A stretch of 64,000 nucleotides of DNA from Paracidovorax cattleyae (GTDB lineage: Bacteria; Pseudomonadota; Gammaproteobacteria; Burkholderiales; Burkholderiaceae_C), in assembly GCF_900104515.1 (NCBI RefSeq), contig NZ_FNJL01000001.1, positions 124,001 to 188,000 of the forward strand, in the 5' to 3' direction. Position 1 is the stretch's first letter. Each line of letters opens with the position of its first letter. The translations under genes and the position numbers were made by a program. Under the pieces are notes generated by a model. The model was given only the letters and a program-made list of their open reading frames with translations. It was not told the DNA's origin and searched no databases. This document shows, piece after piece, positions 56,733 through 64,000 of this stretch.

Positions 56733-58700
<1,968 letters not shown>

Positions 58701-58740
58701 CGACGCCGCGCGCACCCACCGGGCGCGTGCCTTCCCTAGC

Positions 58741-58779
58741 CGCCGCGCCGGGCCCTTTCCCCCAAGGGCCTGCGCGGCG
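58741..58779 (+). promoter_or_regulatory. Strong hairpin between dnaK and dnaJ
   Basis: CGCCGCGC (58741-58748) pairs with GCGCGGCG (58772-58779), and further in GG-CCCTT pairs with AAGGGCC with one bulged base, giving a stem of about 15 pairs. No T-run follows, so it is unlikely to be a terminator. A weaker GC hairpin (around 58708-58730) precedes it. Confidence 0.6.
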
Positions 58780-58808
58780 TTCGTGTTCCCAAAGGACCCG
58801 GAAACACC

Positions 58809-59945
58809 ATGTCCAAACGAGACTTTTACGAAGTCCTGGGCGTTCCGAAGAACGCCTCGGACGAAGAGATCAAGAAGGCCTATCGCAAGCTGGCGATGAA
58901 GCACCACCCCGACCGCAACCAGGGTGATGCCGCCAAGCCGGCCGAGGAGAAGTTCAAGGAGGCCAAGGAGGCCTACGAGATGCTCTCCGATCCGCAGAAG
59001 CGCGCGGCCTACGACCAGTTCGGGCACGCCGGCGTGGATCCCAACATGCGCGGCCCCGGCGGCGCGGGCGCGGAAGGCTTCGGCGGTTTCGCGGAAGCGT
59101 TCGGCGACATCTTCGGCGACATGTTCGGCGGCCGGCGGGGCGCCGGCGGCGGGCGGCAGGTCTATCGCGGCAACGACCTCAGCTACGCGATGGACATCAC
59201 GCTGGAGGAAGCCGCCAAGGGCAAGGAAGCGCAGATCCGCATTCCCACCTGGGAGAACTGCGAGACCTGCCACGGCAGCGGCGCCAAGCCCGGCACCAGT
59301 GCCAAGACCTGCACGACCTGCTCCGGCACGGGTACGGTGCAGATGCGCCAGGGCTTCTTCAGCGTGCAGCAGACCTGCCCGCACTGCCGCGGCACGGGCA
59401 AGATCATTCCCGAGCCATGCGTTACCTGCCACGGCCAGGGCAAGGTCAAGAAGCAGAAGACGCTGGAAGTGAAGATTCCCGCCGGCATCGACGACGGCAT
59501 GCGCATCCGCAGCGTCGGCAACGGCGAGCCGGGCACCAACGGCGGGCCTCCGGGCGACCTCTACATCGAGATCCGCCTGAAGAAGCACGAGATCTTCGAG
59601 CGCGACGGCGACGACCTGCACTGCCAGGTGCCTGTGAGCTTCATCACCGCAGCCCTGGGCGGCGAGATCGAAGTACCCACGCTGCAGGGCAAGGCGGCCA
59701 TCGACATCCCGGAAGGCACCCAGGCCGGCAAGCAGTTCCGGCTGCGCGGCAAGGGGATCAAGGGCGTGCGCTCCAGCTACCCCGGCGACCTGTACTGCCA
59801 CATCGTGGTCGAGACGCCGGTCAAGCTGACGGAACACCAGCGCAAGCTGCTGCGCGAGCTGGACGAATCCCTCAAGAAGGGGGGAGCGAAGCACTCGCCC
59901 AGCGGCGAGAGCTGGACCGACCGGCTGAAGAACCTCTTCACCTGA
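58809..59945 (+). CDS. dnaJ: Chaperone protein DnaJ (Hsp40)
   Basis: A 378-residue cochaperone of the type I Hsp40 class. It has a J-domain with HPD (in [10 protein letters not shown], about residue 33), a glycine/phenylalanine-rich segment (residues 75-110), and four zinc motifs, [24 protein letters not shown] and CVTCHGQG (about residues 145-220), then the C-terminal substrate domain with [14 protein letters not shown]. It stimulates DnaK ATPase and delivers substrates. It follows dnaK by 108 bases. Confidence 0.98.
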
Positions 59946-59966
59946 TCGCTGCCCTATCCACTGCAG

Positions 59967-60000
59967 GCCGCCCCGCGCACCGCGCCGGGCGGCTTTTTTT
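59967..60000 (+). terminator. Rho-independent terminator after dnaJ
   Basis: GCCGCCC (59967-59973) pairs with GGGCGGC (59987-59993) and is followed by seven T residues. It lies 21 bases past the dnaJ stop. Confidence 0.88.
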
Positions 60001-60018
60001 GCGCCCCGGTGTCCCCCA

Positions 60019-60046
60019 TCGCGATGTGCGACGTCGCGTTTCGCGA
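60019..60046. promoter_or_regulatory. Symmetric palindromic operator candidate upstream of LysR
   Basis: TCGCGA (60019-60024), CGACGTCG (60029-60036) and TCGCGA (60041-60046) are placed with perfect symmetry about 60032.5; the whole 28-base element is palindromic at 22 positions. The two outer TCGCGA copies are 22 bases (two turns) apart. It lies 71 bases upstream of the LysR start and could be the regulator's own binding site. Confidence 0.45.
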
Positions 60047-60117
60047 TGACTGGGCACAAGCATCCAGAGGACAATCCCTTCAAGGCTTCTCTTTCGAAGA
60101 AGCCATATGCCCTACCC

Positions 60118-61053
60118 ATGAAAAACCCCGACCGCCACTTCGCGCGCCGCATCGACCTGACCTCGCTGCAGCTGTTCGTGGCCGTCTGCGAACTGGGCAG
60201 CATCGGGCGGGCCGCAGAGCGCGAATTCATCGCCGCGTCCGCGGTCAGCAAGCGCCTCTCGGATCTCGAAGCGGCCGTGGGCTCCGCGCTGCTGTACCGG
60301 CACAGCCGGGGCGTGACACTGACGCCCGCCGGCGAAAGCCTGCTGCACCACGCGCGCACCGTGCTCTTCGGGCTGGAGCGCATGCAGGGCGAACTGAGCG
60401 AATACGCCGATGGCGTGCGCGGCCACGTGCGGGTGCACGCGAACATTTCCGCCATCGTGCAGTTCCTGCCCGAGGACCTCGGGGCCTTTGCCAGGGAGCA
60501 TGCCCAGGTCAAGATCGATCTGCAGGAGCATCTGAGCCCCGACGTCCTGCATGCCGTGCGCGAAGGCGCGGCCGACCTGGGCCTGTGCCACACCGGCGAC
60601 GGTTCCGAGCCGCAGGAACTGCAGAGCCGCCCCTACCGCAGCGACCGGCTGGCGCTCGTGGTGCCCGAGGGGCATCCGCTGGCCGGGCGGCCTGCGGTCC
60701 GGTTCGAGGATGTGCTCGACTGGGACATCGTCGGCCTGCAGGCCAACAGCAGCATCAGCCTGGCCATGCGCCGCGGCGCCGCGCGTGCCGGGCGCCCCCT
60801 GCGCCAGCGCATCCAGGTCACGGGCCTGGACGCCATGTGCCGAATGATCGACAACGGCCTGGGCATCGGGCTGCTTCCCGACCGGGCCTTCGCGCTGATG
60901 CGCGGCGTGGGACGGCTGCAGCCGGTCCTGCTGGACGAACCCTGGGCGGAGCGCTCGCTCCGTCTCGTCGCGCGCGACTTCGGCAGCCTGCCCGTGACGG
61001 CGCGGCTGCTGGCCGACCATCTGGCGCCGCCGGAACGCAGGACCTCTTCCTAG
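60118..61053 (+). CDS. LysR-family transcriptional regulator
   Basis: A 311-residue LysR regulator from ATG 60118; an in-frame start at 60046 would add 24 residues without homology. The N-terminal winged helix is RRIDLTSLQLFVAVCELGSI, then ASAVSKRLSDLEAAVGSALLYRH. The C-terminal ligand-binding domain has the pattern VRVHANISAIVQFLPEDLGA and GLDAMCRMIDNGLGIGLLP. It is 45 bases before leuC on the same strand and possibly controls it; the ligand is unknown. The upstream palindrome at 60019-60046 may mediate autoregulation. Confidence 0.88.
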   Translation: MKNPDRHFARRIDLTSLQLFVAVCELGSIGRAAEREFIAASAVSKRLSDLEAAVGSALLYRHSRGVTLTPAGESLLHHARTVLFGLERMQGELSEYADGVRGHVRVHANISAIVQFLPEDLGAFAREHAQVKIDLQEHLSPDVLHAVREGAADLGLCHTGDGSEPQELQSRPYRSDRLALVVPEGHPLAGRPAVRFEDVLDWDIVGLQANSSISLAMRRGAARAGRPLRQRIQVTGLDAMCRMIDNGLGIGLLPDRAFALMRGVGRLQPVLLDEPWAERSLRLVARDFGSLPVTARLLADHLAPPERRTSS

Positions 61054-61098
61054 AATCCACCCATCCCCACCCTGAACCAGCCCACGAGAGAACACACC

Positions 61099-62520
61099 AT
61101 GGGACGCACCCTCTACGACAAGATCTGGGACGAGCACGTCGTCCATACCGAAGATGACGGCACGGCCATCCTCTACATCGACCGCCACCTCGTGCACGAA
61201 GTGACCAGCCCGCAGGCGTTCGAGGGCATCCGCCAGGCCGGACGCAAAGTCTGGCGCGTCAGCTCCATCGTCGCCACGGCCGACCACAACACGCCCACCA
61301 ACGGCTGGGAGCGCGGCTACGACGGCATCGAGGATCCGATCAGCAAGGAGCAGATCACCACGCTGGACAAGAACATCGCCGAAGTGGGCGCCGCCGCCTT
61401 CTTCCCGTTCATGAGCAAGCGGCAGGGCATCGTGCACGTCATCGGCCCCGAGAACGGTGCGACCCTGCCCGGCATGACCGTGGTCTGCGGCGACAGCCAC
61501 ACCAGCACGCACGGCGCGTTTGGCGCCCTGGCGCACGGCATCGGCACCAGCGAGGTCGAGCACGTCATGGCCACGCAGACCCTGCTGGCCAAGAAGGCGA
61601 AGAACATGCTGATCCGCGTGGAGGGCCAGGTCGCCCCCGGCGTGACGGCCAAGGACATCGTGCTGGCCATCATCGGCAGGATCGGCACGGCCGGCGGCAC
61701 GGGCTACACCATCGAGTTCGCGGGCCCCGCCATCCGCGCACTCAGCATGGAAGGCCGCATGACCGTGTGCAACATGGCCATCGAGGCCGGCGCCCGTGCG
61801 GGCCTGGTGGCGGTGGACGACAAGACCATCGAGTACGTGAAGAACCGGCCGCTCTCCCCCACCGGCGTCGAATGGGACCAGGCCGTCGCCTACTGGAAGA
61901 CGCTGCACTCGGATGCCGATGCGCACTTCGACACCGTGGTCACGCTCAACGGTGCCGACATCGTTCCGCAGGTCACCTGGGGCACCTCGCCCGAGATGGT
62001 GCTGGGCGTGGACGCCAGCGTGCCCGATCCCGACAGGGAAAAGGACCCGAACAAGCGCAGCGCCATGGAGCGCGCGCTGACCTACATGGCGCTGGAGCCC
62101 GGCAAGCCGCTGAACGACATCTTCGTGGACAAGGTGTTCATCGGCAGTTGCACCAACAGCCGCATCGAGGATATGCGCGAAGCCGCTGCCGTGGTGAAGA
62201 AGCTGGGCCGCAAGGTGGCAGGGAACATCAAGGTGGCCATGGTGGTGCCCGGCTCGGGCCTGGTGAAGGAGCAGGCCGAGCGCGAGGGCCTGGACCAGGT
62301 CTTCAAGGCCGCGGGCTTCGAGTGGCGTGAGCCTGGCTGCTCCATGTGCCTGGCCATGAACGCCGACCGCCTGGAGCCGGGCGAGCGCTGTGCCTCCACC
62401 AGCAACCGCAACTTCGAAGGCCGCCAGGGCGCGGGCGGGCGCACCCACCTGGTCAGCCCCGCCATGGCCGCCGCCGCCGCGGTGCACGGGCACTTCGTGG
62501 ACATCCGCAGGTTCGCCTGA
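61099..62520 (+). CDS. leuC: 3-isopropylmalate dehydratase large subunit
   Basis: A 473-residue aconitase-family enzyme isomerising 2- to 3-isopropylmalate in leucine synthesis. The 4Fe-4S ligands are in [18 protein letters not shown] (about residue 350) and [13 protein letters not shown] (about residue 412). Other conserved parts are [20 protein letters not shown] and [20 protein letters not shown]. Start at ATG 61099 after GAGAGAACACACC. It is followed two bases later by the entericidin-like gene, then leuD and leuB. Confidence 0.97.
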
Positions 62521-62522
62521 CC

Positions 62523-62648
62523 ATGAAAACCCTCACCGCCCTGTCCGCGCTGGCCCTGGGCCTGCTGCTGGCCGGCTGCAACACCGTCAAGGGCATGGGC
62601 CAGGACGTGCAGCGCGCCGGCAGCGCCATCGAGCGCGCCGCCAAGTAA
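62523..62648 (+). CDS. Entericidin A/B-family small lipoprotein
   Basis: A 41-residue lipoprotein precursor. The signal [19 protein letters not shown] has a textbook lipobox (LLAGC, cysteine 19), and the mature part [20 protein letters not shown] matches entericidin peptides (G-x-G-x-D-x-x-x-A-G). It begins two bases after the leuC stop and ends 34 bases before leuD, so it is inside the leucine operon. Function in this context is unknown. Confidence 0.87.
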
Positions 62649-62682
62649 TCCGATCCGAACCGAAACGCAACGGACACCTGCC

Positions 62683-63336
62683 ATGCAGAAATTCACCCTC
62701 CACAAAGGCCTCGTGGCCCCCATGGACCGCGAGAACGTCGATACCGACGCCATCATCCCCAAGCAGTTCCTGAAGTCGATCAAGAAGACCGGCTTCGGCC
62801 CCAACCTGTTCGATGAATGGCGCTACCTGGACCAGCCGGGCCAGCCCGGCGTTCCGGAATCGGCCCGCAAGCCCAATCCCGACTTCGTGCTGAACCAGCC
62901 GCGCTACGCGGGCGCTTCCATCTTGCTGGCCCGCAGGAACTTCGGCTGCGGATCGAGCCGCGAGCACGCCCCCTGGGCGCTGGACCAGTACGGCTTCCGC
63001 GCGATCATCGCGCCCAGCTTCGCCGACATCTTCTTCAACAACAGCTTCAAGAACGGCCTGCTGCCCATCGTGCTGCCCGAGGCCACGGTCTCCCGCCTGT
63101 TCGACGAGGTACATGCCTTCCCGGGCTACGAGCTGACCGTCGATCTGGAGCGCCAGGTCATCGTGCACAACCAGGGCGAGGAGATCCCGTTCGAGGTGAA
63201 CGCCTTCCGCAAGTACTGCCTGCTCAACGGCTTCGACGACATCGGCCTCACGCTGCGCCAGGCCGACAAGATCCGCGCCTTCGAGGCGGAGCGGCTGGCC
63301 ACCAAGCCCTGGCTCGCCCACACCATGCCGGCCTGA
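62683..63336 (+). CDS. leuD: 3-isopropylmalate dehydratase small subunit
   Basis: A 217-residue small subunit that completes the LeuC active site. It includes [41 protein letters not shown] and [18 protein letters not shown]. Start at ATG 62683 after GGACACCTGCC. Length is normal (200-220). The next gene, leuB, starts 44 bases later. Confidence 0.97.
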
Positions 63337-63379
63337 TGCCCCGAGACCTTCTTCGCAACCGCACCCAAGAGAACTACCA

Positions 63380-64000
63380 ATGAAAATCGCAGTACTGCCC
63401 GGCGACGGCATCGGCCCCGAAATCGTGGCCGAGGCCGTGAGGGTGCTCGAAATGCTCGACCTTCCCTTCGAGATGGAGTCCGCCCTGGTCGGCGGCGCCG
63501 CCTACGAGGCGCACGGCCACCCCCTGCCCGAGGCCACGCTCAAGCTGTCCCAGGAGGCCGACGCAGTGCTGTTCGGTGCCGTTGGCGACTGGAAGTACGA
63601 CAAGCTCGACCGCCCGCTGCGCCCCGAGCAGGCCATCCTGGGCCTGCGCAAGAACCTGGGCCTGTTCGCCAACTTCCGCCCGGCCATCTGCTACGAACAG
63701 CTCACGCACGCTTCCAGCCTCAAGCCCGAACTCGTCGCGGGCCTGGACATCCTCATCATCCGCGAGCTGACGGGCGACATCTACTTCGGCCAGCCGCGCG
63801 GCCGCCGCACGGCCACCGACGGGCACTTCCCCGGCGCCGAGGAGGCCTTCGACACCATGCGCTACAGCCGTCCGGAGGTCGAGCGCATCGCGCACGTCGC
63901 CTTCCAGGCCGCGCGCAGGCGCAGCAGGAAGGTCACGAGCGTGGACAAGGCCAACGTGCTGGAGACCTTCCAGTTCTGGAAGGACGTGGTCACCGACGTG
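63380..64000 (+). CDS. leuB: 3-isopropylmalate dehydrogenase, N-terminal part (cut by window edge)
   Basis: The first 207 codons of LeuB, the NAD-dependent decarboxylating dehydrogenase of leucine synthesis; the rest lies beyond the window. The start [20 protein letters not shown] is typical, followed by [31 protein letters not shown], and the substrate-binding arginine region [16 protein letters not shown], then [14 protein letters not shown]. The reading frame is open to the edge. The ATG at 63380 has GAGAACTACCA upstream. Confidence 0.96.

Follow-up and report, generated by a model that had tools for sequence, protein, structure and literature searches.

What is known of entericidins concerns mainly enterobacteria, in which they form a putative toxin pair. 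What, then, is a gene of this kind doing between the genes for the two subunits of 3-isopropylmalate dehydratase? We examined this question in a 64,000-nucleotide stretch of the Paracidovorax cattleyae genome (hereafter the window), in which the first-pass annotation had recorded a 41-residue entericidin-like lipoprotein in the leuC–leuD interval. That identification holds. The gene, here called ecn, occupies 62523–62648 on the plus strand; its residues 21–40 align with the whole of the PF08085 Entericidin profile (positions 1–20 of 20; 41.1 bits, cut-off 23.3), and a lipobox, LAGC, was read by eye at residues 16–19. The signal peptide comprises residues 1–18 (62523–62576, +; likewise read by eye). 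The mature lipopeptide of 23 residues (62577–62645, +) begins with the cysteine for lipidation, carries asparagine at position +2 and has the hydrophobic moment of an amphipathic helix.

Upstream of the leu genes lies a LysR-family regulator gene (60046–61053, +; Pfam HTH_1 and LysR_substrate matches), which reached the cut-off of none of the 25 NCBIfam models listed out of 56. It ends 45 bases before leuC (61099–62520, +), the gene for the large dehydratase subunit (NCBIfam TIGR00170, 782.5 bits, cut-off 560.25), and two bases (CC, 62521–62522, +) lie between the leuC stop and the ecn start. A spacer (62649–62682, +) follows ecn, and leuD (62683–63336, +), the gene for the small subunit (NCBIfam TIGR00171, 272.1 bits, cut-off 116.25), begins with an ATG 34 bases past the ecn end. 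Translation signals were scored as anti-Shine-Dalgarno (anti-SD) duplex energies, with values at or below −4.5 kcal/mol counted as a strong SD; by this measure the spacer pairs weakly before leuD (−3.2 kcal/mol). A further ORF, which we take to be leuB, starts at 63380 (+) and is still open at the window end (64000). All four genes, leuC, ecn, leuD and the presumed leuB, share the plus strand. A scan of 61000–63450 limited to sigma-70-like promoters and terminator-like sites found neither, and an Rfam scan of 58000–64000 (E up to 0.5) gave no RNA leader, with one irrelevant sub-threshold match.

ecn is more than a chance ORF, because it is intact in the 14 parsed genomes of the genus and its mature part, judged from substitution patterns, is under purifying selection. 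Among 46 related sequences, the mature part (22 residues) gave a pN of 0.28 and a pS of 0.50, a pN/pS ratio of 0.56 over 878 of 1,035 pairs, the other 157 being excluded by pS limits and the pairs not being independent of one another. In the same 46 sequences the signal peptide gave a pN of 0.51, a pS of 0.56 and a ratio of 0.92, that is, near-neutral drift. The NCBIfam equivalog cut-offs for EcnB (36.4 of 94 bits) and EcnA (35.5 of 86) were both missed by ecn, as was that of the entericidin_domain model (23.6 bits, cut-off 40), and a PDB sequence search returned two chance-level matches only (E 0.58 and 0.94).

A search of the genus gave 17 genomes, counting the window's own; each of them matches the window DNA through the ecn stretch, and the gene is intact in each of the 14 that were parsed (the unparsed ones are L334, L346 and L347). 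For the first-pass annotation, absence or loss of coding in most relatives would have spoken against its reading; in the genus, the reverse was found. It had also drawn attention to the two-base gap after leuC, which is present in this assembly but peculiar to this genome, the 13 other parsed congeners having 11–43 bases at the same junction. In a pairwise alignment with Paracidovorax citrulli DSM 17060 (L245), 26 bases including CCAGGA are absent before the window's ecn start. By these comparisons the change that left only two bases is confined to the window's genome, and the missing 26 bases may be an assembly error. The associated loss in ecn duplex energy is small (−3.8 kcal/mol in the window versus −4.3 kcal/mol in congeners that keep CCAGGA), and the signal is weak in the genus, reaching −4.5 kcal/mol or below in 3 of the 14 parsed genomes. 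With its usual leader missing, the window's ecn may be reached by ribosomes arriving from leuC. The gap had hinted at tight leuC–ecn coupling, but it is peculiar to this genome, and in relatives it is ecn and leuD that repeatedly lie close together; the window's own leuD, 34 bases past ecn, is less tightly placed than usual. Separately, four congeners (L341 (G534) and L348 (G536), and by coordinates G531 and G532) have an ecn–leuD spacing that is longer by 450–485 bases. The extra ORF read in L341 and L348 encodes a cysteine-containing protein ending GGTWSNGQ, and in L341 its start is export-like.

How far does the arrangement extend? In a sample of 250 genomes of the order Burkholderiales, each at least 90% complete, 137 had a PF08085 match. 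Coordinates were listed for 124 of these, and in 100 of the 124 the match lay no more than 600 bases upstream of leuD. For the 145 leuD-bearing genomes without such a coordinate link we fetched the regions upstream of leuD, together with those of further linked genomes, so that 219 regions were read, counting loci from the searches. An entericidin-like ORF occupied the leuC–leuD gap in 124 of the 245 order genomes with leuD (98 read, 26 by coordinates only), and the leuC–ecn–leuD order occurred in 38 of the 50 families sampled. The gap was shorter than 80 bases and free of ecn, leuC and leuD nearly touching, in 102 of the 250 genomes, while 14 had a longer gap without a match to the ORF pattern. 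Five genomes without leuD at threshold and five without leuC upstream (one of them a contig end) were dropped from the count. Two ORFs that are entericidin-like by eye (G168, G204) were passed over by the pattern; they would bring the count to 126 and were scored as ecn only in the trees. Both belong to the 14 longer-gap genomes, as do a decayed remnant (G020) and G023, G145 and G176. The conservation in Burkholderiales that the first-pass annotation had proposed to check is thus real across families, yet no more than about one genome in two of the order sample shows it.

A single ecn copy fills the gap in 94 of the 98 read genomes, and of the 100 genomes linked by coordinates at least 15 have a further PF08085 match elsewhere. 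Tandem entericidin-like pairs, reminiscent of EcnA/EcnB, were seen in the gap of G124, G128, G203 and G218. Other kinds of gene were also observed in this slot. In three genomes of family f24 (G023 (L080), G145 (L140) and G176 (L159)) it holds Sec-exported-looking repeat proteins without a lipobox, which are possibly derived from ecn. A HicB-like antitoxin gene replaces ecn in L284, ~500 bases upstream of leuD (PF15919, 30.6 bits, cut-off 27), and, by resemblance only, in L291.

A set of named genomes whose LeuD is related to that of the window gave 80 loci, 79 of them with leuC upstream. Of these 79, 41 fit the ecn pattern after one letter had been added to it (40 before) and 30 had short gaps; two more, L251 and L315, carried ecn by eye. 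Rhodoferax antarcticus (L305) and Caenimonas koreensis (L282) are examples with the leuC–ecn–leuD order. PF08085 matches were present in 97 of 200 genomes of the window's family (presence only) and in 42 of 276 genomes of a class sample. Once two genomes of the window's own family were set aside, 40 genomes from other orders of the class carried an entericidin gene; in 8 of them it preceded leuD and shared its strand, as assessed by eye, genome by genome, in a comparison that covered ecn and leuD only. The distance was at most 50 bases in seven (G313, G323, G358, G377, G381, G434 and G479) and 334 bases in G362. The presence or absence of ecn changes at least 35–36 times on single-gene LeuC trees, which may overstate the number of changes; because its status changes so often, ecn is dispensable over time. 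A frameshift in L314 and stop codons in G020 look like losses under way.

Among the literature matches listed, mostly titles and the starts of abstracts, no published description of an entericidin between leuC and leuD was found. In the accessible text of PMC10781756, leuC and leuD of Comamonas testosteroni have adjacent locus tags, consistent with the ORF-free gap of L248; that of PMC6971185 has entericidin, leuC and leuD at separate places. The leuC–ecn–leuD arrangement is real and conserved. A lipoprotein of a familiar kind has long kept a puzzling place in the operon, and the whole is ordinary in its parts and moderately surprising as an arrangement.

The mature peptide keeps the motif C-N-T-x-x-G-x-G-(K/Q)-D-(V/I) and a later G across 102 copies from 98 loci, with N2, T3, G6, G8, D10 and G15 at 89–96%, values to which the search pattern for gap ORFs contributed by already requiring part of the motif. 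Over mature residues 4–23, the helical hydrophobic moment has a mean z of 3.4 and exceeds 1.64 in 97% of the 98 relatives; for the window's peptide, z is 3.7 against shuffled peptides. We read these features as those of a lipidated surface helix. Under the sorting rule of E. coli, Asn rather than Asp at position +2 favours the outer membrane. By analogy, the Asn at +2 would destine the ecn lipopeptide for the outer membrane. Longer, repeat-bearing versions occur in some lineages. In L088 (G043), L184 (G215) and L207 (G243) an ecn-like lipoprotein with KTKETAE-type repeats lies in a gap of ~0.9 kb; the longest, in G043, gives weak matches to synuclein and apolipoprotein models, both under cut-off. 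In L083 (G032) and L105 (G076) the entericidin motif is doubled in-frame inside one lipoprotein.

Translation signals differed between ecn and the leuD that follows it. Across the order, ecn starts had a mean duplex energy of −6.43 kcal/mol versus −2.85 kcal/mol for shuffled sequences, with 80% at or below −4.5 kcal/mol (n = 98). Behind ecn, leuD starts had a mean of −3.02 kcal/mol (shuffled, −3.49 kcal/mol) and 27% had a strong SD (n = 98), whereas leuD directly behind leuC reached a mean of −5.59 kcal/mol (shuffled, −2.94 kcal/mol) and 64% (n = 102). In 69 of 98 relatives leuD starts at −5 to +10 from the stop of ecn, with peaks at −1, −4 and +2. In the named set, 80% of ecn starts had a strong SD (n = 40), and the proportion for leuD was 12% with ecn (n = 41) versus 53% without it (n = 30). 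The strong SD of leuC hardly varied with ecn status in the same set (37% of 38 and 41% of 27), and that of leuB was low in both groups (12% of 40 and 19% of 27).

Synonymous shuffles qualify this pattern. Behind ecn, leuD pairing was slightly stronger than expected (−3.21 versus −2.48 kcal/mol, p = 0.03, n = 69), and behind leuC it exceeded expectation by more (−6.27 versus −4.20 kcal/mol). Because the shuffles expect weaker pairing still, the low leuD pairing behind ecn is partly a matter of coding constraint. Of the 51 leuD starts that overlap the end of ecn or follow it by up to 3 bases, 39% were at or below −4.5 kcal/mol, and where ecn lies more than 13 bases from leuD (28 of 98), leuD mostly lacks a strong SD too. 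Independent lineage comparisons yielded 10–12 supported pairs, of which 4–5 differed as predicted, 0.2–0.3 in the opposite direction and the rest not at all; a sign test on these pairs was not significant (median p 0.06–0.13). Stop–start proximity with a weak leuD SD is common in relatives, yet not significant on independent pairs, and the spacer in the window measures 34 bases. Taken from the sequence signals, leuD translation is likely coupled to that of ecn in many relatives.

The explanation towards which we lean, tentatively, is that ecn is a resident cistron of the leu operon, co-translated with leuD, whose product acts in the envelope as a lipid-anchored helix rather than as a toxin. 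Ribosomes would start at ecn, terminate there and reinitiate at leuD, and the lipoprotein and the small subunit of the isomerase would thereby be made together. At the outer membrane, the peptide would form a lipid-anchored surface helix that takes part in envelope or vesicle interactions, as reported for the Agrobacterium protein Atu8019; such an envelope role is our best inference, drawn by analogy. A bolder proposal, which we consider unlikely, is that leuD largely gave up its ribosome-binding site to the inserted ecn in about half of the sampled order, locking lipopeptide output to that of isopropylmalate isomerase. If this were true, the resulting ratchet would explain why dozens of families keep an apparently unrelated gene among biosynthetic ones, and simple ecn deletions would resemble leucine auxotrophs.

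Alternatively, the leuC–leuD junction might simply tolerate small genes, ecn being lodged there for steady expression with no translational or leucine link. We take this possibility seriously while doubting it. It would account for the 102 of 250 genomes with a short gap free of ecn, for the use of the same slot by a HicB-like gene (L284, L291) and by the Sec-exported repeat proteins (G023, G145, G176), for the four genus genomes with 450–485 extra bases between ecn and leuD (an ORF having been read in two) and for the weak ecn SD in the window's genus. Yet one fixed place in 38 of 50 families exceeds what neutrality would lead one to expect, and the leuD SD is lower exactly where ecn is present, though not significantly so on independent pairs.

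Nutritional coupling, whereby leucine or general starvation would induce leuCD, hence more ecn, and the envelope would be adjusted, appears improbable. The absence of an RNA leader from 58000–64000 in the Rfam scan argues against it. In its favour are the same-strand run of genes, free of internal sigma-70-like and terminator-like sites in the region scanned, the LysR gene just upstream of leuC, and the listing of a Caulobacter EcnB homologue in the carbon-starvation SigT regulon (PMC3073932, in its accessible part).

We give very little credence to a bacteriolytic toxin–antitoxin module of the type proposed for E. coli EcnA/EcnB. Membership of PF08085, the tandem pairs in four gaps (G124, G128, G203, G218) and the second PF08085 match elsewhere in at least 15 of 100 linked genomes all recall such a module, but a profile search of the window's genome matched ecn only, and the EcnA and EcnB equivalog cut-offs were widely missed. 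Because 94 of the 98 genomes read have just one ecn in the gap, a toxin–antitoxin pair is unlikely, and the homologue Atu8019 lysed neither cells nor liposomes in the accessible account (PMC7296081). Equally hard to credit is a translational spacer in which only the translating ORF matters and the peptide is functionless: the strong ecn SD, the stop–start junction with leuD in many genomes and the drifting signal peptide would fit, but the mature peptide is under purifying selection and keeps N2, T3, G6, G8, D10 and G15 at high frequency, even if the search pattern required part of that motif.

An entericidin settled in a housekeeping operon across much of an order points to a general envelope role. 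The leuC–ecn–leuD arrangement is also a case, provided by nature, for testing how translation of its neighbour can make a small insertion difficult to lose. Transposon or deletion phenotypes ascribed to ecn may, moreover, be polar effects on leuD.

The window's ecn resembles E. coli EcnA and EcnB in its PF08085 match, lipobox and small size; those genes form a tandem pair, whereas here one gene stands between leuC and leuD. The E. coli module has its own stationary-phase promoter. In the E. coli model, EcnB is the bacteriolytic toxin, against which EcnA serves as antidote (Bishop 1998, as cited in the accessible parts of PMC7296081 and PMC3735583), and the latter source describes somewhat lower adherence of Moraxella ecnAB mutants. 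Caulobacter CC_3473 is an entericidin B homologue according to its authors and is listed in a carbon-starvation sigma-factor regulon (PMC3073932, accessible part). Agrobacterium tumefaciens Atu8019 is, like ecn, a small entericidin-like lipoprotein without an EcnA partner. In the accessible part of that report (PMC7296081), its overproduction caused a slight growth delay and more aggregation of E. coli without lysis, most tests showed no difference between the deletion strain and wild type, and a role in vesicle docking is put forward by the authors. Its mature part has 32 residues against 23 in the window's ecn, and vesicle docking was tested for Atu8019 only. The remaining comparison is with leuCD operons that lack the insert. 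There, too, leuC and leuD are adjacent on one strand, but leuD abuts leuC, and of 102 such genomes 64% give it a strong SD, as against 27% of 98 behind ecn.
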